NCBI GenBank assembly: GCA_030647435.1 | Contig: JAUSJX010000152.1 | Coordinates: forward strand, 1-64,000 | Length of the DNA stretch: 64,000 nucleotides | Reading direction: 5' to 3' | DNA from: Candidatus Rokuibacteriota bacterium | Lineage (GTDB): Bacteria; Methylomirabilota; Methylomirabilia; Rokubacteriales; CSP1-6 | In this document: piece after piece, positions 3,244-62,330 of the stretch | How the letters are laid out: each line of letters begins with the position of its first letter | Position numbering within the stretch: position 1 is the first letter of the stretch | Program-made: the position numbers and the translations under genes | Notes under the pieces: generated by a model | Told to the model about the DNA's origin: nothing | The model's input: only the letters and a program-made list of their open reading frames with translations | Databases searched by the model: none

Positions 3244-4436
3244 CGCGCCTGTGCCGTGGCGCCCGAGGCGAGCATGTCGTCAATCTCGGGCTGGTTGAAC
3301 CCGGCCTCGCGCAGCACCTCGACGCTGTGCTCGCCCAAGCGCGGCTGGAGGCGCCGGATCTCGCCGGGCGTCCGGCTGTACGTCGTGGGGATGTCGGGCA
3401 TGCGCAGCGTGCCCTCGCTCGGATGCTCGACGACCTTCCAGAAGCCGGTTGCCTCGAGCTGCGGGTCGGCGAGAAGAGACTCGAGCGTGTTCACGACGGT
3501 CGCCGGCACGCTCGCGCGCTCGAGCGCCTGGAGCCACTCGGCCGACGTGCGCGTGGCGACGATCTTGCCCAGCTCCTCGTATAGCACCTTGATGTTCGCC
3601 AGCCGCGATTCGAGCGTCGTGAAGCGCGGGTCGTCCTGCAGCTCGGGGCGCCCCGCGATCTGGAAGAACGTCCGCCAGTGCGCGTCGGTGTAGGGCACCA
3701 CGGCGAGATGGCCGTCCTTCGTGCGGAACGGGCGCCGCCAGCGGCTGAGGATGCGCTTGTAGCCGGCGCTCTCGAGCGGCGGGATGAACGTCTCGCCGTA
3801 GAGATGCTCGACCATGACGTACGCGGCGACGGTTTCCATCATCGGCACCTCGATGGCCTGCCCCAGGCCGGAGCGCTCGCGCTCGAACAGGCCCGCCAGG
3901 ACCGAGGAGAGCACGGCGAGCGAGCTGGTCTTGTCTGCGACGATCGTCGGGACGTAGCGCGGCTCGCCCGCGATGAAAGCCTGGAGCGACGCGAGGCCGG
4001 CGGCCGCCTGGATGACGTCGTCGTAGGCGGGCTTGTTGCCGTACGGGCCACGCGCCCGGAAGCCGTACGTCGCGCAGTAGACGAGCCGCGGGTTGACGGC
4101 CCGGAACGCCTCGTAGTGGAGGCCGAGGCGCGCCGCCGGCTCGGGGCGGAAGTTGTGCAGCATCGCGTCCGCCGTGGACGCGAGCCGCAGCAGTGCGGCG
4201 CGGCCGGCGTTCTGCTTGAGGTCGAGGACGAGGCTGCGCTTGTTGCGGTTGCAGGCGAGGAAGAACGCCGCCATGCCCGGGTGGCGCGCGGGTCCCAGCC
4301 GGCGGGTCGTGTCGCCTTCGGGCGGCTCGACCTTGATGACGTCGGCGCCCAGGTCGCCCAGCGTCTGGGTCGCCCATGGGCCCAGCACGACCGTGGTGAC
4401 GTCGAGAACGCGAACGCCCGCGAGAGGTCCTGGCAT
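3240..4436 (-). CDS. CaiB/BaiF family III CoA-transferase
   Basis: Protein of 398 residues, typical family length. The start at 4436 gives the conserved N-terminus MPGPLAGVRVLDV; an upstream in-frame extension is not conserved-looking. Family features are the GADVIKVEPPEGD loop, the RNKRSLVLDLK stretch and Asp139 in KPAYDDVIQA, the position of the acyl-anhydride-forming aspartate. It should move CoA between organic acids. The four-base overlap with the MaoC gene downstream marks a two-gene unit. The substrate cannot be read from sequence. Confidence 0.9.
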   Translation of the reverse strand: MPGPLAGVRVLDVTTVVLGPWATQTLGDLGADVIKVEPPEGDTTRRLGPARHPGMAAFFLACNRNKRSLVLDLKQNAGRAALLRLASTADAMLHNFRPEPAARLGLHYEAFRAVNPRLVYCATYGFRARGPYGNKPAYDDVIQAAAGLASLQAFIAGEPRYVPTIVADKTSSLAVLSSVLAGLFERERSGLGQAIEVPMMETVAAYVMVEHLYGETFIPPLESAGYKRILSRWRRPFRTKDGHLAVVPYTDAHWRTFFQIAGRPELQDDPRFTTLESRLANIKVLYEELGKIVATRTSAEWLQALERASVPATVVNTLESLLADPQLEATGFWKVVEHPSEGTLRMPDIPTTYSRTPGEIRRLQPRLGEHSVEVLREAGFNQPEIDDMLASGATAQAR

Positions 4437-4555
4437 GAGGAGTCCTTGGAACGGCGGGGTGAGCTTAGACGAACGCGGCCCGTCGTGTCCATCCGAAATC
4501 GCTTCGCCTCCCGGTTCCGTCATGTCCGCGCGCGGAGGTGCTACCATCTGGCGCT

Positions 4556-5803
4556 GTGCCGCCCGACCTCCGCGACGCGCCCGCGCCGCCGCGCCGATGG
4601 CTCCTCCTCGCGCTATTGACCGTGGCGTACGGGATGGGCGCCTTCGGCATTCTCGGTGTCTCGCCGCTCTTGCCGAGCCTCGTCGAGGGCTTCCGCCTCA
4701 CGCGCCTCGACGTCGCGTTCGTCGTGCCGTCCGTCTACCTCGGCGGCCTGCTCTTCTCGCTCCCGGCGGGGCATCTCGCCGATCGCTGGGGCGTGCGGCC
4801 GACCTTCCTCGGCGGCCTCGCCCTGGGCTCAGCAGGGCTCGCGCTGGCCGCGGCGGCGCCGCGCTTCGGGATATTCCTCGCCTGTATCTTCCTGGCCGGC
4901 GTCGGCTGGAGTGTGGTCAACCCCGTGCTGGGCAAGGCCATCGTCGATCTCTTCCCGGCGGGCGAACGCGGCGTCGCGATGGGGATCAAGCAGATGGGGC
5001 TGACGGTGGGCGGCGTCATCTCCGCGCTCGTGCTGCCGCGCATCGCCGCCGTCCTCGGCTGGCGCGCCGCCGTCGTTGCCTGCGCGGTCATGATGGGCGC
5101 GCCCGTGCTCGCGAGCTGGCGGCCGCTCGCGCCCCTGGCCGTCGCGCGCCCGGGCGAGGGTGGGGAATCGAGCGCCGCGCCGGCGGGTAATTGGTGGTGG
5201 CTCCGGCGGCCCGCGCTTCTGATGCTGTTCGGCGCCGGCGTCGCGCTCGGGATGGTGCAATCGGCGGTGCTGAGCTACCTGCCGCTCTACGGTGTGGAGG
5301 CGCTGGGCTTCACGGCGATCGCGGCGGGCGCGCTCGTGGCCTCGGCGCAGGCGGGCGGCGCCGCGGCGCGCCTGGGGCTGGGCGCGGCGAGCGACCGGTG
5401 GCTGGGGGGGCGCCGGCCTCTGTGGCTCGTGCTCTCCTCGGTGATCGCCGCCGTCATTTTCACCTCGTACGCCGTGGCGCCCACGCCCCGGCCCGCGGCG
5501 GCGATGGCGCTGGCGTTTCTGGCGGGCATCGGCGCGCACGGATGGGTGGGGATCTACTTCATCGCGAGCGCCGAGGCCGGCGGGCCGCGCCAGTCGGGTC
5601 TGCTCAGCGGCGTGGCGTTCACGGCGATCGTGGTGGGCCTGATGCTGGGGGCGCCGGTCTTCGGCGTGGTGCTGGAGGCGCGCGATTCCTACGGCGCAGC
5701 GTGGGCGGTCTTCGCCGCGCTCTCTGCGCTGGTGGCCCTGCTCATGGCGCTGGCGGGCGGCGCGATCCATCGCGAGTGCGAGCGCGCGAGGGGCGGGGCC
5801 TGA
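4556..5803 (+). CDS. MFS transporter
   Basis: About 415 residues with twelve apparent transmembrane segments. The major-facilitator loop 2-3 motif appears as [11 protein letters not shown]. The frame opens at a GTG at 4538. I prefer the GTG at 4556 because a GGAGG lies just upstream (4534-4538), though its spacing is long, so the start is uncertain. It is divergent from the CaiB/MaoC pair and is followed by catabolic enzymes, so it may carry an organic anion or amide substrate. MFS specificity cannot be inferred from this sequence. Confidence 0.85.
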
Positions 5804-5881
5804 TCGCCCGGCTGCGCCGAGCGGGCGCTTGCGCCGGAACGCAGTTAGGCTACAATCGCCCGGAAACGCAAGGAGGAGACA

Positions 5882-7342
5882 GTGCCCATGCCCACCACAC
5901 CGTTCCGTTCGGCGAAGGAGCTGGCGGCCGAGATCCGCCGGAAGAAGATCGGCTGCCTCGAGCTGCTGGATCTCTACCTCTCGCGCGTCGAGAAGCACAA
6001 TCCGGCGCTCAACGCCATCATCGCCACCGACGTCGAGGGCGCGCGCAAGCGGGCCCGGGCCGCCGACCGCGCGCTCGCGCGCAAGCAGGTGTGGGGGCCG
6101 CTCCACGGCGTGCCGATGACGATCAAGGAGTCCTACGACGTCGTCGGCATGCCGACCACGTGGGGCGTGCCCGAGCTGAAGGACAACTTCCCGCCGCGCA
6201 ACGCGCTTGCCGTCGACCGCCTCCTCGGCGCGGGCGTGGTGCTCTTCGGCAAGACGAACGTGCCGATCTACCTCGCCGACTGGCAGAGCTACAACGCGAT
6301 CTACGGCACGACCAACAACCCGTGGGACCTGTCGAAGGTGCCGGGGGGATCCTCGGGCGGCTCGGCGGCGGCGCTCGCCGCGGGGCTGACCGGCATCGAC
6401 GCGGGCAGCGACATCGGCTCGTCCATCCGGAACCCCGCCCACTACTGCGGCGTCTACGGCCACAAGCCGACATTCGGCGTCGTCCCGCCGCGGGGCCAGG
6501 CGCTGCCTGGGCGTCTCGCGCAGGGCGACATCTCCGTCATCGGCCCGCTGGGGCGGAGCGCCGAGGATCTCGAGATCGGGCTCGCGGTCATGGCGGGGCC
6601 CGACGAGATCGACGCGGCCGGGTACAGGCTCACGCTGCCGGCGCCCCGGCAGAAGGCGCTCCGCGACTTCAAGGTCGCCGTCATGCTGACCGACCCCAAC
6701 TCCGAGGTGGACGCCGAGGTGCAGGCGAGGGTCCAGGCGGTGGCGGACTTCCTTGCGAAGAAGAAGGCGCGCGTCAGCGACAGGGCGCGGCCGGACATCG
6801 ACACGAGCGAGGCCCAGCGCGTCTACATCCACCTGCTGCGCGCTGCGACGTCCGGCCGCCAGACGCAGGAGGAGTTCGACAAGAACGTCCAGGCCGTGCG
6901 CGGCTTGAGCGCGAACGACGCGAGCTACTACGCGCGCATGCTCCGCGGCAATACCGGCTCGCACCGCGACTGGCTCGCGGCCAACGAGGCGCGGCACAAG
7001 ATGCGCTGGAAGTGGGCCGAGTTCTTCAAGCAGTACGACCTGCTCCTCTGCCCGGCGGCGGCGTCGGCGGCTTTCCCGCACGACCAGCAGGGCGAGCGCT
7101 GGGAGCGGACCATCGAGGTCAACGGCCACCGCGTGCCCACCACCGACCAGCTCTTCTGGGCCGGCTACTCGGGCATGGCGTATCTGCCATCCACGGTGGC
7201 ACCGGCCGGTTTCACCAAGGCGGGGCTGCCGGTGGGCGTGCAGATCATCGGCCCGCAGTACGGCGACCGCGTGTGCATCCACATGGCGCGGCTGCTCGAG
7301 CGCGAGTACCAGGGTTTCGTTCCCCCGCCGGACTACGCATGA
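5882..7342 (+). CDS. amidase signature family hydrolase
   Basis: Protein of 486 residues with the full amidase-signature core: Lys82 (GVPMTIKES), the Gly/Ser-rich loop PGGSSGGS with cis-Ser157, and nucleophile Ser181 in GSDIGSSIR. This Ser-cisSer-Lys triad hydrolyses amide bonds. An AGGAGG at 5871-5876 precedes two possible starts, GTG 5882 and ATG 5888. The protein has no signal peptide and should be cytoplasmic. Its stop lies next to the aldo/keto reductase start, so the genes are probably co-transcribed. It could be a GatA-like amidase by family, but no gatB or gatC neighbours exist, so a catabolic role is more likely. Confidence 0.9.
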
Positions 7343-7356
7343 GCGAGGATCGTCCA

Positions 7357-8343
7357 ATGGAACATCGCACGCTTGGGAAGAGCGGACTCCGCGTCTCGGC
7401 CATGGGGCTCGGCCTGATGTCCATGTCCGGCACCTACGGCAAGAGCGACGACGAGCAGTCCATCCGCGTCATCCACGCCGCCCTCGACCGTGGCGTCGAC
7501 TTCCTCGACTCCTCGGACATGTACGGCTGGGGGCAGAACGAGACGCTGCTCGGTCGCGCCCTCAAGGGACGGCGGAAGGGCGTCGTGGTCGCCACCAAGT
7601 TCGGCAATGTCCAGAACCCGGACGGCAAGGGCAACCTCGTGGACGGCAGGCCAGGGTATGTGGCCCAAGCCTGCGACGCGAGCCTCAAGCGGCTCGGCGT
7701 TGACGTCATCGATCTCTACTACCAGCATCGCGTGGACCCCAAGGTGCCCATCGAGGAGACCGTCGGCGCCATGGCGCGGCTCATCGAGCGTGGGAAAGTC
7801 CGGCACCTGGGTCTGTCAGAAGCCGCGCCCGAGACGATACGGCGAGGGCATGCCGTCCACCCGATCGCCGCCGTGCAGAGCGAGTACTCGTTGCTCTACC
7901 GCCAGCCGGCGGAGGACAGCATCGCCACCTGCCGCGCGCTCGGCATCGGCTACGTCGCCTACTCGCCGCTGGGGCGCGGACTCCTCTCCGCGACGATCAA
8001 GCGCACGGCCGACATCCCGGAGGACGACCGCCGCCGGCAGCACCCGCGCTTCCAGGACGCCAACCTCGACCACAACATGGCGCTGGTGGCCCGCATCGCG
8101 GAGATCGCTTCGAGCAAAGGCTGCACGCCCTCCCAGCTCGCGCTGGCGTGGCTGCTCGCGCAGGGCGCGGACATCGTGCCCATCCCCGGAACCAAGCGCC
8201 TCGAGTATCTCGAAGAGAACCTGGGCGCGCTCGCGGTGGCGCTGACCCGCGACGACCTGGCGCGCCTCGACGAGGCCATGCCGCCCGGCGCGGCCAAGGG
8301 CACGCGCTACCCCGAGGCACAGATGAAAGCCGTCCAGCTCTAG
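7357..8343 (+). CDS. aldo/keto reductase
   Basis: Protein of 328 residues from ATG 7357, which has a GAGGA site eight bases upstream. An earlier ATG at 7339 overlaps the amidase stop and is the alternative. The catalytic tetrad is visible: Asp51, Tyr56 (DSSDMYGWG), Lys81 (VVATKFGN) and His124 (YYQHRVD). The late [13 protein letters not shown] motif is typical of the AKR13-like bacterial group. It should reduce or oxidise a carbonyl/alcohol with NADPH. It is in line with the amidase and the downstream dehydrogenase. Confidence 0.92.
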
Positions 8344-8359
8344 GAGGGCGATCCCGACC

Positions 8360-9223
8360 ATGGCCAAGCGGCGCGTGGTGTTGACCGGGGCGGCGGGTTA
8401 CGTCGCCCAGCGCATGTTCAAGGAACTGGGCGAGCGGTGGGACCTCGTGCCGATCGACGTCCGCCCGACCACGCGCGACGGCAAGCCGGTGCCCGGCCTC
8501 GTGGTCGCCGACCTCACGAATCCCGACCGTAACGCGTACCGGCAGCACTTCAAGGGCGCCGACGCCGTCATCCACTGCGGCTTCGTCAGCGCCCCGGGCC
8601 TGGACGCGACCACCTGGCAGGATAACGGCGACGCCAAGTTCTGGGCCGAGCACAAGAACATCGCACTCGCCTACAACGTGTACCGGACGGCGCTCGAGGA
8701 GGGCGTCCGCCGCGTCGTCGTCGCCTCCTCCAATCACGCCGCCGACTACTACGAGCGGCTGATCTGGGCGGGCAAGATGGAGATGGTGACGCCGGACATG
8801 CCGCACCGGTCGGACAACTGGTACGGCTGGGCCAAGGCGGCCTACGAGCTGCTGGGCTTCGTCTTCGCCACCGGCAAGGTAGACGGCCGCAAGCTCGAGA
8901 TCGTCCAGTGGCGCATCGGCGGCCCGCGCGACGACGACATCGACCAGGTCAAGCCGGGCGACATCAAGGTCATGCACCGGGCCCTCGGCGCCTATCTCTC
9001 GCGCCGGGATCAAATCCAGCAGGCCATCCGCATGGTCGAGGCGGAGAACATCGCCGACGCGCACGGCGTGCCGTTTCTCATCGTCTACGGCATCAGCGGC
9101 AACACGCACCGCTTCTGGAGCATCGCCAACGCGCGCGAGAAGATCGGCTACGCGCCGGAAGACGACAGCCAGGTCAACTTCGCCGACAAGATCGCCGCGA
9201 TCGCGCGCGCCGCGAAGCGATAG
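8360..9223 (+). CDS. NAD-dependent epimerase/dehydratase family protein
   Basis: Protein of 287 residues with an N-terminal Rossmann motif (VLTGAAGYVA, residues 7-16) and an extended-SDR active site Tyr155-x3-Lys159 (NWYGWAKAAYE). An AGGAGG lies ten or so bases before the ATG. The serine around VVASSN completes the triad. Extended SDRs act on nucleotide sugars or other hydroxy compounds. The substrate here is unknown. It closes the four-gene rightward unit begun by the transporter. Confidence 0.88.
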   Translation: MAKRRVVLTGAAGYVAQRMFKELGERWDLVPIDVRPTTRDGKPVPGLVVADLTNPDRNAYRQHFKGADAVIHCGFVSAPGLDATTWQDNGDAKFWAEHKNIALAYNVYRTALEEGVRRVVVASSNHAADYYERLIWAGKMEMVTPDMPHRSDNWYGWAKAAYELLGFVFATGKVDGRKLEIVQWRIGGPRDDDIDQVKPGDIKVMHRALGAYLSRRDQIQQAIRMVEAENIADAHGVPFLIVYGISGNTHRFWSIANAREKIGYAPEDDSQVNFADKIAAIARAAKR

Positions 9224-9245
9224 CGGCCGGGCCCCGGAAGGCACC

Positions 9246-10027
9246 ATGACGAGCCCGAGCCACCGCGACATGATCCTCGATCAGTTCAGCCGCCAGGCCG
9301 ACCGTTCTCGACCGCCCCCGGGATCATGGACGAGCAGGCGCTGCGGCAGATCGTCGAGTTCACCGACGCGGGCCCCTAGGACACCGTCCTCGACGTCGTC
9401 TGCGGCGGCGGCATCATCGTCTGCGCGCTCGCCAAAGTCGTCCGCCACGCGACGGGCATCGATCTCACGCCGGCGATGCTCGTGCGCGCGCGAGCGCTCG
9501 CCGCGGAGAAGAAGCTCACGAACGTCAGCTGGAAGCAGGGCGACGTCCTGCCGCTGCCGTACGCCGACGGCTCCTTCTCCCTCGTGACCTCACGCTTCGC
9601 CTTCCGCCACTTCCTCGACCCCAAGGCCCCGCTCGCCGAGATGAAGCGCGTCTACGCGCCGGGCGGGAGGGTGGCCGTGATCGACACCGAGGCCTCGCCC
9701 GACGCCGCCAAGGCCGCCGAGTTCAACCGGATGGAAAAGCTCCGCGACCCCTCGCACGTGCGCGCCATGCCGCTCACGGAGCTCACGGGCCTGTTCGCCC
9801 CGGCGGGGCTGCCGGCCCCGCGCGTGAGCGGCTACGGCCTCGAGAGCAACCTGGAGAGCCTGCTCGGGCGCTCCTTCCCGCTGCCGGGCGACGCCGACAA
9901 GATCCGCGAGATCTTCACCGCCTCGCTCGGCGACGACCGCCTCGGCATCCCGCTGGCGCGCGCCGGCGAGCGCCTCCGCTATGCCTACCCCGTCGCCATC
10001 CTGGTGGCCGACAAGCCCGCCGCGTAG
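9246..10027 (+). pseudogene. class I SAM methyltransferase, frameshifted with internal stop
   Basis: A UbiE-like methyltransferase is spread over two frames. It begins at ATG 9246 (TSPSHRDMILDQFSRQA). One base appears lost near 9302, after which the reading continues as GIMDEQALRQIVEFTDAGP. A TAG stop at 9377-9379 then interrupts it where a Glu codon is expected before DTVLDV. The SAM motif CGGG and the later GGRVAVIDTE motif follow in the second frame through 10027. Two independent lesions suggest a real pseudogene rather than a single sequencing error. It lies just left of the cassette-like region. Confidence 0.8.
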
Positions 10028-10366
10028 AGCGGTCACCGTAGCTGCCCCGCCACAGCCTTGAGGAGGTCGCGGGCAGGGGTTATCCTCCAGACCGTGATTC
10101 TCGGGGCGACTGCCGACACGCACGTTCTCAATCGGGGTCCCGCCGGTGTCCAGAGCCCCGCAGATCGGATGACGACCCTTTGATCCCGCGCCGGGACCCC
10201 CTCCCGATACGCAGACCTCGCATATCGAATATCCTAGGTCTGCATAGCAAGGCGCCCGGCCGCCTAACCTTGCCGGCGAAGCCAGCGTTTCCACAACCCA
10301 ACCGCGCCACAACTATGATGCCTAGGGCCGTGCTAGGCTGTCGGCCCGGGCTCGGTCGGTGGCGCT
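10028..10366. other. intergenic stretch with two small inverted repeats
   Basis: I see no intact gene here. A weak reading from GTG 10094 (VILGATADTHV) resembles the start of a calcineurin-like phosphoesterase but is lost after about 14 residues. Two perfect inverted repeats are present: eight bases at 10211-10218/10236-10243 around an AT-rich loop, and six bases at 10320-10325/10333-10338, just before the first cassette-like gene. Their role is unknown. They could be part of a leader or a decayed recombination site. Confidence 0.4.
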
Positions 10367-11014
10367 ATGCAGTTCAGCCGAATTTCACTTAGCGAGACAT
10401 GGCGCATGGATAAAATGTTGGGGCGGCTTACGACGACGCGCAAGACAGGAGCGGGCCGCTTCCACGAGCATGGCAAGGAGATCGGCTTCGACCTGCTCAG
10501 CTTCTGGCAATGGAGCACGTCGGATCTCGTCAGCAACGTCACCCGGGGACGCTTGGCCGAGTATGTTGTCGCTCGTGCCCTGGGCATGGCATCAGAAGGA
10601 GTCCGCGACGAATGGGCCGCGTTCGATCTCGTGACTCCATCGGGCATCAAGGTGGAGGTGAAGTCGGCCGCGCACGTTCAGAGTTGGCACCAACGGGCAC
10701 TGTCGCCTGTGAGCTTTGTGGTTCCTAAAACGTTGGCGTGGGACGCAGACACGAACGTGCAGGCTCGGGAAGCACGCCGTCAGGCCGACGTCTACGTCTT
10801 CGCGCTATTGGCGCATGTCGACAAGGCGACGATCGATCCCCTCGACCTCGGCCAGTGGCGATTCTACGTGCTTCCCACCTCGGTTCTCGACGGTAGGAGT
10901 CGAAGTCAGCACTCAATCACACTCAAATCACTGGAGCGATTGGCCGGACTACCGGTGGAATACTCGCGCGTCAGCGATGCGGTCGAGCGGGCGGCGGGAA
11001 GAGCGGCTCGCTAA
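10367..11014 (+). CDS. PD-(D/E)XK-like hypothetical protein (cassette-like gene 1)
   Basis: Protein of 215 residues. Residues 61-100 contain a nuclease-fold pattern: Glu65 in GRLAEYVVARAL, Asp87 in AAFDLVTPSG, then Glu97-Val-Lys99 in IKVEVKSA. This arrangement is typical of PD-(D/E)XK enzymes, including restriction-like nucleases, but the family is not one I can name. Base composition is visibly less GC-rich than the flanking metabolic genes. No ribosome site is obvious; starts at 10367 or at the later Met codons are possible. It is followed at once by an attC-like hairpin. Function could be DNA cleavage or a degenerate relative. Confidence 0.6.
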   Translation: MQFSRISLSETWRMDKMLGRLTTTRKTGAGRFHEHGKEIGFDLLSFWQWSTSDLVSNVTRGRLAEYVVARALGMASEGVRDEWAAFDLVTPSGIKVEVKSAAHVQSWHQRALSPVSFVVPKTLAWDADTNVQAREARRQADVYVFALLAHVDKATIDPLDLGQWRFYVLPTSVLDGRSRSQHSITLKSLERLAGLPVEYSRVSDAVERAAGRAAR

Positions 11015-11080
11015 GCCCGCGGTCGAGCGGACCGCTGGCTCGCATTCGCTCGCGGCGGCCGCTCACCGCGGGCGTTAGGC
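11010..11080 (+). repeat. attC-like imperfect hairpin 1
   Basis: Starting at the stop codon of the preceding gene, 11015-11023 pairs perfectly with 11065-11073 (9 bp). After a bulged C (11024), 11025-11030 pairs with 11059-11064. After a bulged A (11031), 11032-11035 pairs with 11055-11058. The right arm ends in GTTAGGC (11074-11080), the canonical integron R' core site. The expected left core seems to have lost one base (CTAAGCCC instead of CTAACGCCC). Unpaired bases on one arm only are a hallmark of attC. Confidence 0.7.
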
Positions 11081-11096
11081 GTCAGCAGGAGAAGAG

Positions 11097-11588
11097 ATGG
11101 AGCCCGCATGGTTCAAGTTGCTCAAGCACTGGCAGCGCTCGAACCGCTTCGCACTCACGATTCCGTTCCTGTTCGGCGCCCTACGGAACTGGCCAAGCCA
11201 GCCGTTGGGTACGGGGCTGAGCGATAGCGAGCAAATGCGAGCGCTGATCGGGTCACTTCGCGACGATGCACCCGACGGCGTCATCCTCCGCTTGTACAAG
11301 TGCGATAGATTTCAGGAACTCGCTTTGGCACCTGTCTATGGGATCCCGGGTTATTGCATACCTGTACCTTCGACAAGTCGAGCCCAGACGGCGCTCTATG
11401 TTCAACAAGGCATGGTGCCCAGCGCGGAGGCTCTGTTCGAAGGACTCGTAGATGAGCTCCTACAACGGTACGGTGACGCAATTCGAGTTCAGCGGTTCTC
11501 GTTTCGCGCCGGTAAGTTCCAGACGTTCAACGACGCGGACTATGCGCAAATCGCGAGCGCATTGACGCTTCCCGATGAAGACGCCTAA
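11097..11588 (+). CDS. hypothetical protein (cassette-like gene 2)
   Basis: Protein of 163 residues with an AGGAGAAG site just before ATG 11097. I do not recognise the family. It is soluble, with no signal peptide, and has mixed alpha/beta character. The gene fills the space between two attC-like hairpins almost completely, the compact layout expected of a single-gene cassette. Codon use is less GC-rich than in neighbouring metabolic genes. Confidence 0.6.
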   Translation: MEPAWFKLLKHWQRSNRFALTIPFLFGALRNWPSQPLGTGLSDSEQMRALIGSLRDDAPDGVILRLYKCDRFQELALAPVYGIPGYCIPVPSTSRAQTALYVQQGMVPSAEALFEGLVDELLQRYGDAIRVQRFSFRAGKFQTFNDADYAQIASALTLPDEDA

Positions 11589-11685
11589 CCCTTCCATCGA
11601 ACGGACCCACAACGGCGGGGCACGTTTGCTCGCTTCGTCACGGGCAGCGGCACCGTTGCGGTCCGCTCATGTCAAACGGTTCGGC
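11583..11685 (+). repeat. attC-like imperfect hairpin 2
   Basis: The left core GCCTAAC (11583-11589) overlaps the stop codon of cassette-like gene 2. It pairs, apart from one mismatch, with GTTCGGC at 11679-11685. Inner stems are 11602-11607 with 11660-11665 (CGGACC/GGTCCG) and 11611-11615 with 11653-11657 (AACGG/CCGTT), separated by unpaired bases. The loop is about 37 nt. The right core departs from GTTRRRY at one position. Confidence 0.6.
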
Positions 11686-11745
11686 GGACTGGTTTGTTGG
11701 TTGAAATCCGTGGATTTGCAACTCTTTGGCATGGAGGAATAGAGC

Positions 11746-13068
11746 GTGTCAACGGTCTTCGTTTTGGGTGCCGGCGCGTCAATCGGGGCAAAGCCCGGAG
11801 GCAGGACAAAGTTCCCTGGTACAAACGAACTAGTCGAGCGGATCAGAGAGATCGTTTGCGAAAGGGAGGATTCCTACCTCCCGGCGTTGGCCCTTTACCT
11901 GGCTCGGTTCGCGCCCGTTCGGGATATCACTCTAAAGGCTGGCAGACTTCACGCCGACTGGGACCGGACCAATGTCGAAGAGCTTTACGCAGCGATCGAG
12001 TTCGAGAGCCGCATCACCGATCACCTAATGCTAGCGAGCGGGGACCGGGGTTCGGGCACCCAATTCTTTCAGGAGTATTTCTCCGGGCCTTACCGGGATG
12101 CCGTCACGCAGTTGCTGCGCGGTCCGTATCAAGATTGGATGCGTGCGTGCTACTCGGCTTCTTACGGCAGCGAGCCTTTCCCCCACCTCCATGAGAACTT
12201 CCTGCGGATCGTCAAGATGGAGTTACTCGACGCCATCGCCCATACACTTGGGGTGTTGTCGGAGGAAGAGGACACGTCGAACTTTTCTCGCCTGGCACGG
12301 CACTTTGAAAAGGGCGACACCGTCATCACGTTCAACTACGACCTCCTGGTCGAACAGCACCTGACCCGGGAGCGCCCAGCGGACTGGTCCTACCTTACGG
12401 GGTACGGATTTCGACCGACCTCGGAGAAGTGTGATTTGCGTTTTGCCGGGGATGCTCCCAACCATCCCTCAACGTTTAAGGTGCTGAAGCTTCACGGCTC
12501 CAGCAACTGGCACTTTCGGTTCGTCCAGGGTACGGGGGATGGTCCCCCCGGTTTCGTCGAGGGTTACCGCACTGTCCCGGAACCCATTGGTGTAGGGAAC
12601 CGCATTCGCGACGTTCGTCCAGCGTTCTTCCAAGCTACTGACAACTTCTTCAAACGAGTGGTCGTGGAAGGGGAACCCGGAGGGTACTACGAGCGGTTTA
12701 TGATCCCGCCCAGCACGTACAAGGCAGAATACAACTTCTCTGCCCAGTTCCTCCACGACCCAACGGGAAGTCCTCTACCGCTCGGCAGTTCAACCATGTG
12801 GCTACCGCAATTGCTGTACCGACTCGCGCTGCAAGCCCTCGCGGCTGCGGAGAGGATCGTGTTCATTGGCTTCAGCATGGCACCTGCCGACACGTCGATT
12901 CGGATGCTCTTCCGCGCGGCAGCGGATGCAAATTCGGCCCTGCGGCTTGTTGAAATCGCAGACCCGTGTGCTAACGTAGCTAGCCGCATCAAAGCCGTTC
13001 TTCCGAGGGCGCAGAGCTATAAGCGTGTGAGGTCTTTCGGGGAACTCCTGGATGAATGGAAGGTGTAG
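11746..13068 (+). CDS. SIR2-domain protein, candidate NAD-hydrolysing defence factor (cassette-like gene 3)
   Basis: Protein of 440 residues from GTG 11746, with GGAGGA seven bases upstream. SIR2-like features are the N-terminal GAGAS motif (residues 8-12), TFNYD with Asn197 and Asp199, and LHGSSNW with catalytic-position His250. Near the C-terminus is FIGFSMAPADT. Stand-alone SIR2-like proteins of this kind occur in prokaryotic antiphage systems, where they deplete NAD, and cassette arrays often carry such genes. The role here is inference. The gene has no partner beside it, so it would act alone or be part of a scrambled system. Confidence 0.75.
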   Translation: MSTVFVLGAGASIGAKPGGRTKFPGTNELVERIREIVCEREDSYLPALALYLARFAPVRDITLKAGRLHADWDRTNVEELYAAIEFESRITDHLMLASGDRGSGTQFFQEYFSGPYRDAVTQLLRGPYQDWMRACYSASYGSEPFPHLHENFLRIVKMELLDAIAHTLGVLSEEEDTSNFSRLARHFEKGDTVITFNYDLLVEQHLTRERPADWSYLTGYGFRPTSEKCDLRFAGDAPNHPSTFKVLKLHGSSNWHFRFVQGTGDGPPGFVEGYRTVPEPIGVGNRIRDVRPAFFQATDNFFKRVVVEGEPGGYYERFMIPPSTYKAEYNFSAQFLHDPTGSPLPLGSSTMWLPQLLYRLALQALAAAERIVFIGFSMAPADTSIRMLFRAAADANSALRLVEIADPCANVASRIKAVLPRAQSYKRVRSFGELLDEWKV

Positions 13069-56414: not shown

Positions 56415-56450
56415 TCCAACGACCGGGCGCGCCTGGAGCAGGTCTGCCGG
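56415..56450 (+). pseudogene. IS91-type transposase, first fragment
   Basis: Twelve codons read SNDRARLEQVCR, the segment that in IS91-like transposases directly precedes Y-x-LRPPLAQDRL. The frame stops where the palindromic left end of the two-recombinase element begins. The continuation is found at 59005. The rest of the transposase N-terminus is absent upstream. Confidence 0.6.
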
Positions 56451-56474
56451 TTATGCGGAGCTCCGCATAAGCGG

Positions 56475-56504
56475 CACTATGCGGACCGGGGAGTTATGCG
56501 GACC
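56475..56504 (+). repeat. left 30-bp inverted repeat
   Basis: Exact reverse complement of 58977-59006. It contains two TATGCGGA units 16 bases apart, likely recombinase-binding sites. The palindrome TTATGCGGAGCTCCGCATAA lies just outside at 56451-56470, and its half-site is the same unit. Confidence 0.9.
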
Positions 56505-56635
56505 CGGCGCCCACGTGGTCGGGAGGAACGCTGAGAATGCCGCGGCTTCGGCCACCTCGGAGGGGATGACCCGGGCCGCATAATTCGGGCACGCTGGGGT
56601 CCCCATTCACCGGGCTTCGGCCCAAGGCGGACACC

Positions 56636-57930
56636 GTGCTCGAGCGCTGCTTCAAGAACCCCCTCACTCTGCACCGTCTCCGCAGCGGGCCTGCGGGGCC
56701 GTTTCTCGACGGCTTCGCGGAGTCCATGTGCGCCGACGGCTACTCGTCCGAGACGGGCGGCGTCTACCTGTACGCCGCCGACCACCTGGGCCAGTGGGCC
56801 GCGCGGCGGGGCGTTGCCATCGTGGATCTCGACGAGGATCTGCTCGCGCGTTTTGTGCGTCATCTGCCCCGGTGCCGATGCCGCGGCAGCAAGCGCAGGG
56901 GCCACAAGCGGGTGCCGTTCCGCATCCACGCGTTCCTGCGGTACCTGCGCGACACGGACGTCGTGACCACGTCCGCGCCGGAGGCGACCCGTCCGCCGCT
57001 GGTGACCGAGTACGGCGTGTGGATGCGCGACCGGCGCGGCCTGGCCGCCACGACGATGGCCCGCTCGGTGCCGGTGGTCCAGGCCCTGCTCGCCACCGTG
57101 GGCGACGATCCCACCGGGCTCGATGCCGCGGGCGTGCGCCGGTTCGTGCTCGAGTACATCCGGCAGCACGCGCCCGCGTCGGCCGGCTGGGTCACGACCA
57201 TCGTCCGATGCTTCCTGCGGTGGCTCGTCGCGCACGGTCGGTGCTCGCCAGACCTCGTCGATGCCGTTCCCACGATGCCCACGTGGCGGCTGGCCACGCT
57301 CCCCCGCGACCTCCCGGATGCCGATGTGGAGCGCATCCTCGAGGCCTGTGATCGCCCCAGCCCCGTGGCGCGGCGCGATCGCGCTATGCTGCTGCTGCTC
57401 GCCCGCCTGGGTCTGCGCGCGGGTGACGTCGTCGCGCTCCGGCTCGGCGACATTGAGTGGGGGCGGGGACGTCTCCGCGTCGTCGGCAAGAGGCGGCGCG
57501 AGACACGGCTGCCGCTGCCTCAGGACGCGGGCGATGCGCTGCTCGATTATCTCACGGCCGAGCGTCCCGCCGCCGCCACGGACCACGTCTTCCTGACCGC
57601 ACGCCCTCCCATCCACCCGATTCGCTCGAGCGGCGTGCGCGATGTCGTCTGTCGCGCGATCGGGCGCGCCGGCGTTCGGGCGCCGTCCCGGGGGACCCAC
57701 GTCCTGCGCCATAATGCCGGGCCCGGCATAACCGCCACACCTTTGCCGTGCGGGCCCTGGAGGCGTGTCCGCACGGCGGGAGCCCCGTCGGCTGGCGCAT
57801 GCGCGTGCTGTCGATCGACCTCGGCCACCGCAACCTCGCCGACACGTGCTGGTACCTGCACGCGACGCCGCAGCTGATGCAGGGCGTCGCCCATGCGTGT
57901 GAGCGGTTCCTCGAAGGAGGTGTCCGATGA
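56636..57930 (+). pseudogene. tyrosine recombinase 1, broken by palindromic insertion
   Basis: Starts at GTG 56636. The N-terminal SAM-like domain, then catalytic Arg in LGLRAGDVVALRLGDI and Lys in VVGKRRRETRLPL, are intact up to HVLRH (the H-x-x-R box). There a 26-base insertion shifts the frame. The natural C-terminus continues in another frame as TFAVRALEACPHGGSP to LGHRNLADTCWYLHATPQ, with the catalytic His and nucleophile Tyr, ending at 57930 and overlapping the next gene by ATGA. Without the insertion it would be an intact recombinase of about 420 residues. Confidence 0.8.
57707..57737 (+). repeat. 21-bp palindromic insertion with 5-bp flanking duplication
   Basis: CGCCA (57707-57711) is repeated at 57733-57737. 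Between them, 57712-57732 holds the 16-base perfect palindrome ATGCCGGGCCCGGCAT with TA/AA edges. The insertion splits the His-x-x-Arg box codon of the recombinase. Its TTATGC/GCATAA-like ends resemble the palindrome at the element's left end. Confidence 0.75.
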
Positions 57931-58952
57931 CGCCGATCGCTCCACACATCACCGCGTTCCTCCAGCAGCGGCTCGCCGTGGACCGGCGGGCCAGCCCGCA
58001 CACGTGCGACACCTACGCCTACGCCTTTCAGCTCCTCTTCCAGTTCATGAGCCGAGCGCTCGGCGTGGCGCCCGCCGACCTCGCGCTGGAGCAACTCGAC
58101 GCGCCCCTCGTGCTGCAGTTCCTCGACCATCTCCAGCAGGAGCGGCACAACGCCCCGCGCACGAGGAACGCCCGGCTGGCCGCCGTCCGCTCCTTCATGC
58201 GGTTCGTCGAGTACCGCGTGCCGTCGACGCTCGATCAGGTCCGACGCGTTCGGGCCATCCCCGCGCAGAGGACCGACACGCGGATCGTGCGGCACCTCAG
58301 CGTCGAGGAGCACCGCGCGCTCCTCGATGCGCCGGAGCCGACCACGCGCCTCGGCCTCCGCGACCGCGCCATGCTGCTGCTGGGGCTCGCGGGCGGCCTG
58401 CGCGTCTCAAAGCTCGTCGGCCTGCGCCTGGACGAGGTGCAGTTCACCGGCCGCTACGTCGACGTGCGTGTGCGCGGCAAGGGACGCCGCGAGCGCGCCC
58501 TGACGCTGTGGAAGTCGGTGGGCGACACGATCCGCGCCTGGCTTGCCGTGCGCGGCGACGCGCCCGCCCCGGAGCTGTTCCTCAACGCCTGGGGCCAGCC
58601 CATGACGCGCTCCGGCTTCGAGCGCGTGCTCACCAAGCACGTCGCAGCGGCCGCCGCGCGCTGCCCGTCGCTCCGGGCCAAGCGTGTCTCGCCGCACGTG
58701 CTGCGGCACACCTGCGCGCTCAACACGCTGCAGGCGACGCGCGACCTGCGCAAGGTCTCGCTGTGGCTCGGCCACGCCAGCACGCAGACCACCGACATCT
58801 ACTTGCAGGCCGACCCGACGGAGAAGCTCGAGGCGCTCGCGGCGATGACGCCGCCGGCGCTGCGGCCGGGGAAGTTCCGGCCGCCCGACCGACTGATCGC
58901 CGCCCTGCGCACCCCCACGGTTATGCGGAGTCCCGACGCGGTCAACCCATGA
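57927..58952 (+). CDS. tyrosine recombinase 2
   Basis: Protein of 341 residues with GGAGG before ATG 57927, overlapping the first recombinase. The full catalytic set is visible: Arg159 (GGLRVSKLVGL), Lys185 (RGKGRRER), His257 and Arg260 (PHVLRHTCAL), His283 (LWLGHAS) and Tyr292 (TTDIYLQ). The N-terminal core-binding domain runs from residue 6 to about 100. It should cut and join DNA at the TATGCGGA repeats, probably together with the first recombinase. The gene ends 24 bases before the right inverted repeat. Confidence 0.9.
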   Translation: MTPIAPHITAFLQQRLAVDRRASPHTCDTYAYAFQLLFQFMSRALGVAPADLALEQLDAPLVLQFLDHLQQERHNAPRTRNARLAAVRSFMRFVEYRVPSTLDQVRRVRAIPAQRTDTRIVRHLSVEEHRALLDAPEPTTRLGLRDRAMLLLGLAGGLRVSKLVGLRLDEVQFTGRYVDVRVRGKGRRERALTLWKSVGDTIRAWLAVRGDAPAPELFLNAWGQPMTRSGFERVLTKHVAAAAARCPSLRAKRVSPHVLRHTCALNTLQATRDLRKVSLWLGHASTQTTDIYLQADPTEKLEALAAMTPPALRPGKFRPPDRLIAALRTPTVMRSPDAVNP

Positions 58953-58976: not shown

Positions 58977-59006
58977 GGTCCGCATAACTCCCCGGTCCGC
59001 ATAGTG
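58977..59006 (-). repeat. right 30-bp inverted repeat
   Basis: Perfect complement of 56475-56504, closing the two-recombinase element. An additional TTATGCGGAG unit lies inside the element at 58920-58929. The IS91 transposase sequence resumes at 59005, overlapping the last two bases. Confidence 0.9.
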
Positions 59007-59057
59007 TCGGTATCTCCTGCGCCCGCCCCTCGCCCAGGATCGGCTCCACCTCCGCAC
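59005..59057 (+). pseudogene. IS91-type transposase, middle fragment
   Basis: The frame reads CRYLLRPPLAQDRLHLR, the conserved IS91-family block that follows LEQVCR of the first fragment. It breaks at TCCGCAC (59051-59057), the left copy of the IS21 target duplication. The next residues TDGRVLVTLK are found at 61857. Confidence 0.75.
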
Positions 59058-59204: not shown

Positions 59205-60785
59205 ATGGCCTATCGCGAGGTCACGATGCTCGAGGTCAAAGAGGTCCTGCGGCTCTGGCTGACCGGCGTCCGCAAGAAGCGGATCGCCGCCCAGCTGGGC
59301 CTGAACGTCAAGACGGTCCGGCGGTACCTGGGCGCCGCGCAGGCGCACGGGCTGACGATCGTCGCCAGTCCCGACCAGCTGGACGACGGCCTGCTCGCCG
59401 CGGTCGTCAGCGCCGTCCAGCCGGGCACGGGGCGCCCCCATGGCGACGGCTGGGCCGCGTGCGTGGCCCACCGCGACGTCATCGAGCGGTACCTGCGCGC
59501 CGACGTGCGGCTGTCCAAGATCCGCACGCTGCTCCGGCGCCAGGGTGTGCTCATCAGTTACCCCACGCTCCGACGCTTCGCCCTGGAGGCACTCGACTGG
59601 GGCCGCGCCGCGCCGACGATCCCGCTGGCTGACTGCGGCCCCGGGGAAGAGGTCCAGCTCGACACCGGCTGGATGACGCACCTGGCGCCCGACGCGCTGG
59701 GCCGGCGCCGACGCTTCCGGGCCTGGATCTTTACCCCGGTCCTGTCCCGCTACCGTTTCGTCTTCCCTGTGTTCCGCGAAACCACCGAGACGGCGATCGA
59801 GGCCTGTGAAGCCGCCTGGGCGTTCTTCCACGGCGTCTTCCGCGTCCTGATCCCCGACAACACGAAGACGATCGTCCAGCGCGCGGATCCCCTCGAGCCC
59901 CGGCTGCCGGCGGCCTTCCTGGAGTACGCCCAGGCGCGCGGCTTCGTCATCGACCCCACGCGCGTGCGCCGGCCGCGGGACAAAGCGCGCGTGGAGCGCG
60001 CCGTGCCCATCGTCCGCGACGACTGCTTCGCCGGGGAGGTCTTGCTGGACCTCGCTCACGCGCGGACGCACGCCGTGCAGTGGTGCCGCGAGGACTATGG
60101 CGTGCGGCGCCACCGTCGCACGCTGCGCCCCCCGCGCGAGCACTTCGAGGCCGTCGAGCAGCCGGCCCTGCGCCCGGCCCCCACCACGCCCTACGACATC
60201 CCGCTCTGGTGCGAATCCAAGGTCGCCCGCGATCAGCATGCCCAGGTGGCCCGCGGGCTGTACTCGCTGCCGACCCCGTATGTCGGCCACACCCTGCGGG
60301 CCCGCGCCGACTCCACCACCGTCCGCTTTTATGCCGGCGCCGTCTGCGTCAAGGTCCACCCCCGCGTCGCGCCGGGCCAGCGCGCCTTCGATCGCGCCGA
60401 TTTCCCCGTCGACAAAACCATCTATGCCCTGCGCGACGTCGAGAGCCTGGCCCGCCGGGCCGAGGGCCATGGCCCTGCCGTCGGACAGTTCGCCCGCGCC
60501 CTGCTGGCCGGCGACTTGCCCTGGACCCGCATGCGCCAGGCCTACGCCCTGCTCGGCTTGGTTCGGCGCTATGGCGACGCCCGCGTCAACACGGCCTGCG
60601 AGACCGCGCTCGCCGCCGAGATGCTCAGCGTCCGTCGCCTTGCCCGGCTCCTCGCACTCGCGGCGCCGCCCGCCCCGCCGCCCCCCGCGCGCGTCCTGCC
60701 GCTCGCCCGATATCTGCGACCCGCCACCCACTACGCCCTGCCCCTGCCCTCCGCAGAGCGGCGGGAAGAAGGAGATCCCACATGA
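59205..60785 (+). CDS. istA: IS21-family transposase IstA
   Basis: Protein of 526 residues with AGAAGGGG before the ATG. The N-terminal helix-turn-helix is VKEVLRLWLTGVRKKRIAAQ to NVKTVRRYLG. The rve-type catalytic triad is Asp153 (VQLDTGWM), Asp218 (LIPDNTKTI) and Glu264 (KARVERAVP). The C-terminal Mu-like domain follows. It cuts and joins the element ends with the help of IstB. The stop overlaps istB by ATGA. No lesion is seen. Confidence 0.93.
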   Translation: MAYREVTMLEVKEVLRLWLTGVRKKRIAAQLGLNVKTVRRYLGAAQAHGLTIVASPDQLDDGLLAAVVSAVQPGTGRPHGDGWAACVAHRDVIERYLRADVRLSKIRTLLRRQGVLISYPTLRRFALEALDWGRAAPTIPLADCGPGEEVQLDTGWMTHLAPDALGRRRRFRAWIFTPVLSRYRFVFPVFRETTETAIEACEAAWAFFHGVFRVLIPDNTKTIVQRADPLEPRLPAAFLEYAQARGFVIDPTRVRRPRDKARVERAVPIVRDDCFAGEVLLDLAHARTHAVQWCREDYGVRRHRRTLRPPREHFEAVEQPALRPAPTTPYDIPLWCESKVARDQHAQVARGLYSLPTPYVGHTLRARADSTTVRFYAGAVCVKVHPRVAPGQRAFDRADFPVDKTIYALRDVESLARRAEGHGPAVGQFARALLAGDLPWTRMRQAYALLGLVRRYGDARVNTACETALAAEMLSVRRLARLLALAAPPAPPPPARVLPLARYLRPATHYALPLPSAERREEGDPT

Positions 60786-61567
60786 CCCCTGACCCGATCT
60801 CGGCCGACCTGAAGACCGTGCTGCGTCGCCTCCGGCTCTCCCGCGTGCTCGACACGCTCCCTGAGCGCCTGACCCTCGGGCGCCAGCAGCCGCTGCCCCA
60901 CCAGGACTTCCTCCTCCTCATCCTCACCGACGAGGTGACGCGCCGAGACAGCCTGGCCGCCACCCTGCGGGCGCAGCGGGCCGGCCTCGACCCCGGCGCC
61001 CAGCTCGAGCATTGGAACACCACGGCCCACGTCACCTTCGATCGCGCGCTCCTCAACGAGCTCGTCACGCTCCGCTTCCTGGAGGCGCATCACCACGTCG
61101 CCCTCGTCGGGCCCGTCGGCGTCGGCAAGAGCTTTCTCGCCCACGCCCTGGGCCACATCGCCTGTCGCCGCGGCCACTCTGTCCTCGCCCTCCGCACGGA
61201 CGCGATGCTCAAGACCCTCAAGCACGCCCGGCTCACCCAGAGTCATGAGGCCGAGCTCCGTAAGCTCCTCGCCGTGGACCTCCTGATCCTCGACGACTTC
61301 GCCCTCGATGCCATGGAGGCCCAGGAGAGCCGCGACGCCTATGAGGTCTTCCTCGAACGGGACCGCGCCGGCTCGCTGATCGTCGCCAGCAACCGCGGGC
61401 CCGATGAATGGCTCGCCACCTTCGCCGACCCCGTCCGCGCGCAGAGCGCCCTCGATCGCTTCACCAGCCGCGCCTTCGACCTCGTCATCGAGGGCGAGTC
61501 CTACCGCACCCGGCTCAAGCCCAGCCTGCCAGCCCCCGCGCGCAAGGGCCCGGCCGCCCATGGATGA
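60782..61567 (+). CDS. istB: IS21-family helper ATPase IstB
   Basis: Protein of 261 residues, the standard IstB size, with GGAGA before the ATG. It is a DnaC/DnaA-like AAA+ ATPase with Walker A GPVGVGKS (residues 110-117), Walker B LLILDDFAL at about 167-175, and SNRGPDEW in the sensor region. It assembles on target DNA and regulates IstA. It ends about 280 bases before the right terminus. Confidence 0.93.
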   Translation: MTPDPISADLKTVLRRLRLSRVLDTLPERLTLGRQQPLPHQDFLLLILTDEVTRRDSLAATLRAQRAGLDPGAQLEHWNTTAHVTFDRALLNELVTLRFLEAHHHVALVGPVGVGKSFLAHALGHIACRRGHSVLALRTDAMLKTLKHARLTQSHEAELRKLLAVDLLILDDFALDAMEAQESRDAYEVFLERDRAGSLIVASNRGPDEWLATFADPVRAQSALDRFTSRAFDLVIEGESYRTRLKPSLPAPARKGPAAHG

Positions 61568-61851
61568 TCCGGTCATCACCCGTGACCCGTCAGAAAGCGC
61601 CCCGCAGGGGGATACCGCACTATGGCCCGGCCTCTCGATCGCGCTCTCAGAGGCTCGTAGGCCCTGCCGCGCCTCACCGACTCCCGCTCACCAGCGGAGA
61701 AAGGAGTTGCATCACCCCGCGGTCCCGCCCTACAACCATCCTACGGCCGGCGCCCCCGGCCGGAGTCAACCCTAACTCGTCACGTGAGGGGACGGCCCCG
61801 AGGGTCCCATGTTTCTGAACAGGCCGGGTCCCATACTCCTGAAAATCGACA

Positions 61852-62330
61852 TCCGCACCGACGGGCGCGTCCTCGTGACGCTCAAGGCCGCCTGGCGCGA
61901 CGGCACGACGCATGTGCTCTTCGAGCCCATCGAGTTCCTCGAGAAGCTCGCGGCCCTCACACCGCGGCCCGCGATAAATTTGCTGCTCTACCACGCCGCC
62001 CTAGCCCCGCATGCCCGCTGGGGCTCACAGGTCGTTGGCTACGGCCGCACGGTGGCCGGAGATTCGGACGCCGGCCACGGCGCGGCCGGCCCGCGCGACG
62101 CCGGGGGCCAACGCCCCCCACGCTCCTGGGCCTGGGCGGCACTGATGCACCGGGCGTTCGCGCTCGACGTGTTGGCCTGCCCGCGCTGTGGCGGTCGCCT
62201 GCCTCTCCTCGCCCCCGTGCACGACCCCGGTGTCGGGCGCCCGATCCTCGCCCACCTTGGGCTGGCGCCGGGCCCCAGACCCCCCGGACCGGCCCCGCCC
62301 CAGCCCGACCACGCCGCGGCCGCCGGGTAA
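61852..62330 (+). pseudogene. IS91-type transposase, C-terminal fragment
   Basis: In frame from the target duplication, the reading TDGRVLVTLKAAWRDGTTHV, FEPIEFLEKLAALTP and LLLYHAALAPHARW is the C-terminal part of an IS91-family transposase. VLACPRCGGRL is its terminal zinc-binding piece. It stops at 62330. Joined with 56415-56450 and 59005-59057 it gives one continuous protein segment, proving the nested order. The 187 bases after it hold no gene but have TTGACA at 62449-62454, a weak promoter candidate. Confidence 0.8.

Follow-up and report, generated by a model that had tools for sequence, protein, structure and literature searches.

A 26-bp insert in the catalytic box of a RIT recombinase gene, read as the end-palindrome of another RIT

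In the 64,000-nucleotide stretch analysed here (the window; positions 1 to 64,000 of contig JAUSJX010000152.1, Candidatus Rokuibacteriota bacterium), a RIT (recombinase in trio) element is interrupted within the Leu-Arg-His codons of a tyrosine recombinase catalytic box by a 26-bp insert, which is very probably the end-palindrome of a second, TGCCGGG-armed RIT subtype, present without its RIT. We base this reading, together with the course of events proposed below, on the occurrence of the identical palindrome in another genome, on the palindromes found at the ends of RITs, and on a RIT in a third genome that stands between two Leu-Arg-His boxes.

The insert consists of a 20-bp palindrome, P (TAATGCCGGGCCCGGCATAA, 57712-57731), and 6 bp of copied target. 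Its flanks are the imperfect target copies GCGCCA (57706-57711, plus strand), at the Arg-His codons of ritA, and CCGCCA (57732-57737, plus strand), at the Arg-His codons of ritB, with five of six bases equal. A preliminary description of this DNA had counted a 21-bp palindrome and a 5-bp duplication; the total of 26 bases is right, the division is not. It had rightly placed the insert inside recombinase active-site codons, and its picture of an almost pure palindrome with TTATGC/GCATAA-like edges agrees with what we see, namely 9 of 10 complementary base pairs and a single mismatch at the left end (TAATGC, not TTATGC). P therefore fits the TTATGC-N8-GCATAA-like form, and as a 20-mer of this form adjoining a 6-bp target copy it belongs with the RIT end-palindromes; at 26 bp, and with neither recombinase genes nor inverted repeats of its own, it is part of a RIT and not a RIT element. 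The core ATGCCGGGCCCGGCAT, for which a genome-wide search had been suggested, occurs at a single place in the 5.79-Mb genome (both strands, the core being palindromic).

The host element is itself a RIT, with inverted repeats at its ends and a palindrome at one of them. Between the left inverted repeat (TATGCGG-N9-TTATGCGG, 56478-56501, plus strand) and the right one (58980-59003, minus strand) lie, all on the plus strand, the 5' part of ritA, ending at the Arg-His codons (56636-57711), the 3' end of ritB (57732-57930) and an open ritC frame (57927-58952). To the left are the target hexamer T (TGCCGG, 56445-56450), the element's own end palindrome (TTATGCGGAGCTCCGCATAA, 56451-56470) and an inverted hexamer, T' (GCGGCA, 56471-56476), between palindrome and repeat; to the right is the hexamer TGTCGG (59005-59010), at which the frame of an IS91-type (Y2) transposase resumes, these three hexamers being given on the plus strand. 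The element was inserted in that transposase gene, for the reading frame stays open across the junction once its two flanks are joined, and two sister insertions have flanks that are matched by Pfam Y2_Tnp. Pfam Phage_integrase was matched in each type of rit gene, and the window ritC shares 61% identity with the third gene of a Microvirga plasmid trio. An earlier suggestion that P resembles this element's own end palindrome holds for the form and fails for the arms, which are TGCCGG in P and TGCGGA, those of another RIT subtype, in the host.

A second copy of the host element, on contig C139 of the same genome (91-92% identity, with the alignment split exactly at the insert), is intact. Its ritA, ritB and ritC are three adjacent tyrosine recombinase genes whose ends overlap by ATGTTGA and ATGA, within the 4-8 bp by which RITs are recognised, and its second gene is 50% identical to the second gene of the Microvirga trio. 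The C139 copy, as the kind of uninterrupted comparison that had been called for, has no palindrome at this place; its ritA carries the same hexamer as the left target copy, its ritB has GCGGCA where the window has CCGCCA, and CCGCCA is thus an exact match to neither. The window copy runs from ritA to its Arg-His codons, through the palindrome and into ritB from the latter's own Arg-His codons, and 872 bp that separate the two boxes in C139 are missing, apparently by deletion. Both genes are incomplete, fused and broken, and the reading frame is shifted by the insert. Removing the 26 bases does restore the box and the frame, as had been claimed, and the gene so restored is a ritA/ritB chimera, not ritA. 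A third copy, on contig C6, has an internal deletion.

A palindrome alone proves nothing here, because palindromes of P's quality are as common as expected: the window has 6, against 5.6 expected under a first-order Markov model (20 simulations), a difference that is not significant, and we rejected this count as evidence. The TTATGC-N8-GCATAA form, with up to two mismatches, occurs twice in the window, where 0.35 would be expected, and two is reached in 3 of 100 shuffles. What goes beyond chance is this form and, above all, the identical P at the same codons in a second genome. That genome, G003, belongs to another species of the same genus, and has the same 20-mer with the same asymmetric end at the Leu-Arg-His codons of a recombinase gene unrelated to the window's, between the hexamers GCGGCA and GCGTCA. 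Had all homologues contained these bases in frame, there would have been no insertion to explain; instead G003 has exactly 26 extra bases, which are absent from 13 of 13 aligned homologues (L138-L149 and L151, the last from the window's genome; G003 itself excluded, and L150 without coverage of the site). A search of 57 genomes of the family with a 22-mer, allowing up to three mismatches, returned only the window's genome and G003; the 20-mer was present in one record of genome_contigs, at the place of the G003 contig, and in none of IMG/VR. We rejected gene conversion from the window gene as the source of the G003 palindrome, the flanks matching over 51 bases only (box plus palindrome).

RITs from Rokubacteria, rhizobia, Robbsia and viral contigs are found with a palindrome of this form at one end, and plasmids of Sinorhizobium, Rhizobium, Bradyrhizobium, Microvirga and Robbsia show the same structure, in many cases inside IS66 tnpB. 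The recurrent order in integrated RITs is gene - T - P - T' - [inverted repeat - ritABC - inverted repeat] - T - gene, with a T of 6 bp; P itself is best read as two putative recombinase arm sequences back to back, and T' as an inverted hexamer that would derive from the present or an earlier target. Among 95 genomes of the phylum, 4 contain the form TTATGCNGNGCNCNGCATAA with one mismatch, at seven places in all; four of these places adjoin a RIT or its remnant (window P1, C6, G074 and G019:C331), two are the orphans of the window and G003, and one (G019:C103) has only short inverted arms beside it. The form is also found on 30 IMG/VR contigs, and on plasmids 14 of 15 palindromes in 12 records adjoin a RIT-like repeat, a proportion biased by the preselection of these records with a palindrome-plus-repeat query. 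Palindromes at L058, L071, L075/L086 and L083/L085 matched the pattern with no RIT arms beside them and were excluded as probably unrelated. We found no RIT with exactly P attached in the 57 family genomes, genome_contigs or IMG/VR. Three IMG/VR matches to further Leu-Arg-His insertions proved on reading not to lie in a recombinase gene, the G034-type repeat described below had no match there, and a plasmid search with the G003 site gave no recognisable palindrome insertion among the 30 matches listed of 41. Many IMG/VR RITs lie near the end of DUF3489-like genes, at TACNNN or a similar target (L064, L065, L069, L072, L074, L077, L080, L082, L084 and L087; DUF3489 confirmed by Pfam for L064 only).

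The hexamers around these elements are related to one another far more closely than in shuffled pairings. Across 30 distinct ends that fit the 7-bp spacing rule (C6, L059, L127 and L128 are among those dropped), 144 of 180 bases are shared between the left T and the reverse complement of T', with perfect agreement at 13 of 30 ends, against a shuffle mean of 73; the left and right T of 16 elements agree at 78 of 96 bases, 8 of 16 perfectly, against a mean of 43.4. None of 10,000 shuffles reached either value, in rows that are not fully independent, several having one target gene family in common. On a Microvirga plasmid, two 3,384-bp RITs that are 100% identical and oppositely oriented have the hexamers (left T / reverse complement of T' / right T) TTACGC/TTGCGC/TTCCTC and TTGCGG/TTACGC/TTGCGC, and either set can be derived from the other by the rule expected if the circle has two crossover sites. 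This rule also holds for a Robbsia pair (3,418 bp, 100% identity), although nearly all its hexamers are equal, and for L082 and L087 over the 123 bp that they have in common. Of eight near-identical RIT pairs, three fit at both hexamers, two at one (L084 with L087 and L084 with L082) and three at none; since misfits are expected after several hops, we regard the result as support for the rule and not as proof. These comparisons suggest that RITs move in circular form, with a 6-bp crossover site on either side of P, and the identical copies at different sites on two plasmids would be indirect evidence for mobility. Tn916-type elements offer a parallel in their coupling sequences, in which a short piece of the old target travels with the element, as with the RITs here, but they have one joint and no palindrome that would let either of two joints be used.

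A link between the orphan and its target comes from a third genome, G034, whose contig C9 holds a full RIT of the TGCCGGG type with outer arms CATGCCGGG. Both of its flanks are recombinase genes (Pfam Phage_integrase) cut at the Leu-Arg-His box and lying head to head, so that a RIT with arms like the orphan's uses the orphan's target. That the G034 RIT lacks P speaks against a simple one-to-one link with the orphan. Shortened RITs are represented by deletion derivatives of ~440 bp (L064) and ~100 bp (L059), a series of which T-P-T would be the end. Plasmid ZX09 has another palindrome without a RIT, with flanks from different loci: the left one shares 99.97% identity over 3,398 bp with plasmid M15, on which this palindrome is accompanied by a RIT with arsenic genes, and the right one is an inverted version of the same region, 72-87% similar. 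Joins like those of ZX09 and G034, and the ritA-ritB deletion, suggest that P-T junctions may recombine with one another.

As a side observation, L136 (NZ_CP031365.1 1000-14000) has a palindrome, at 5134, in the middle of a long inverted repeat that is imperfect (72-87% similar) and looks like the left halves of two related loci joined head to head. In L135 (NZ_CP048637.1 74000-100000), a RIT at ~3369-12590 has ~9.2 kb between its repeats with arsenic-resistance cargo, and RITs can therefore carry passenger genes; its left and right targets are both TCATGC and its inverted hexamer is GCATGA.

The course of events that we propose starts from P-T'-inverted repeat, which can be read as an ordinary tyrosine recombinase core site, with inverted arms around a 6-bp overlap. 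A circle of the form P - s1 - RIT - s2 would have two such core sites, within whose 6 bp the recombinases would exchange strands. As P is palindromic, either joint could be opened, leaving the RIT in either orientation to P, and each opening would place one of the stored hexamers at T' and the second in a flank. In the window, a TGCCGGG-type RIT with its P would have integrated at the Arg-His codons of the resident RIT's catalytic box; the RIT part would then have been lost by recombination of the right arm of P with the outer arm that corresponds to it in the far inverted repeat, either enzymatically or by slippage, leaving T-P-T and 26 bp. The 872-bp gap could have formed when the P-T junction recombined with the similar ritB hexamer, or by an earlier recombination between the two catalytic boxes; loss before or after the arrival of the palindrome would yield the same final sequence. 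The orphans are few (the window, G003 and plasmid ZX09), and loss of a RIT from such a site was never seen directly in our comparisons; both points count against the proposal. In a more general form it is tentative, and we lean slightly away from accepting all of it: RIT circles may hold P between two 6-bp crossover sites that store the last two targets, integrate in either orientation and leave P behind, orphans may then serve as recombination hubs, and one subtype may disarm rival recombinases, including those of a rival RIT, at their Arg-His codons, a pattern suggested by three genomes.

The suggestion of the preliminary description, a minimal mobile palindrome or a footprint of recombinase action, is supported, as P appears to be a RIT end-palindrome alone with a 6-bp target duplication. 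In a rival reading P would move by itself. As a 20-bp two-arm element, inserted in trans by RIT recombinases with a 6-bp duplication, it would have needed no RIT at the site beforehand. Both orphans consist of exactly P and 6 bp, with an identical P in two unrelated genes, and P has both arms that a substrate would need; we nevertheless think this rather unlikely, because a 26-bp circle is hard to imagine as an intermediate and the RIT-like palindromes of IMG/VR include no orphan, though RIT-attached ones are common there. It is a good deal less probable that the insert is the remnant of a whole element whose outer ends (10 bp + 10 bp) were fused by an internal deletion. The shortened RITs of ~440 bp (L064) and ~100 bp (L059) would lead towards such a product, and the G034 outer arms would yield a similar fused palindrome, but two separate origins would be needed for one 20-mer, asymmetric end included, and palindromes of P's form attached to RITs already exist.

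Explanations from outside the RITs fare worse. A footprint left on excision by an ordinary insertion sequence of the DDE-transposase kind, with ends TTATGCCGGG, would share a target duplication and inverted ends in a general way, but palindrome form, 6-bp hexamer pattern and target are all RIT-like, and our searches, none aimed specifically at such an element, encountered no DDE element with these ends; we hold this origin to be highly improbable. We give even less credence to a chance palindrome or an assembly error. Palindromes of this quality are numerous and both genomes are draft assemblies, yet two assemblies have the identical 20-mer, each time at these codons and beside a 6-bp target copy, in genes that are unrelated.

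Set against published accounts, the orphan end-palindrome adds to what is described for RITs, elements of ~3,500 bp whose mobility is given as unproven (PMC3414803), which have been found in radC and in an IS66 tnpA (PMC2864759) and whose RitA, RitB and RitC are classed as subgroups (PMC8138268). Our elements resemble those described in their three overlapping tyrosine recombinase genes, length of ~3.4 kb and end inverted repeats (PMC3414803, PMC2864759), in a palindrome overlapping the end region, and in insertion inside other genes, including IS66 and other transposases. The window insert differs in being the palindrome alone, without genes or inverted repeats, and 6-bp target copies, T' and orphan palindromes are absent from the portions of these two accounts available to us. 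As possible recombinase sites, the available part of PMC3414803 offers only a 28-9-bp inverted repeat with an overlapping palindrome and nothing else convincing; the present comparisons supply concrete candidates (arms, 6-bp overlap and palindrome), and a hexamer bookkeeping rule that can be checked by PCR of circle joints. Similar 6-bp bookkeeping is reported for SE elements (strand-biased circularizing integrative elements), which, like GInt islands, have several tyrosine recombinases and a 6-bp spacer between inverted motifs at the circle joint, with the spacer from the last donor site moving along with the element (PMC10214605) to its new location. Such carriage of a 6-bp donor spacer is what 3 of 8 pairs, the Microvirga pair among them, display at both hexamers. 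A fourth, small gene (srap / ginD) also characterises SE and GInt elements; our reading of C139 covered the three rit genes. SE elements are described there as having one joint, whereas RITs as read here would have a palindrome between two 6-bp sites, either of them usable. Neither orphan palindromes nor the hexamer rule turned up in the literature that we searched, which lacks most subscription journals. The orphan reading would explain a class of tiny insertions that would otherwise pass for random palindromes, and in the window the end-piece of one mobile element would have disrupted another at its active-site codons.

The window and its genome also hold some further RIT-related features. 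A third, inverted arm copy (CCGCATAA / TTATGCGG) is present at 56576-56583 and 58921-58928, lying 75-100 bp inward from one end of the host RIT and 60-80 bp inward from the other, and similar subterminal arms are visible in L064, L117, L118 and L119. Just to the right of the host RIT, an IS21-type element occupies 59205-61567 and seems to lie in the remainder of the same IS91-type gene; the C-terminal piece at 61809-62327 had no Pfam match. Elsewhere in the genome a further full RIT (L117; G000:C69:57959-61303), with TATGCCGAG arms and the imperfect end palindrome TTATGCCGATATCGGCATGA, stands between two pieces of an apparent transposase gene, which we take to be IS256-like.
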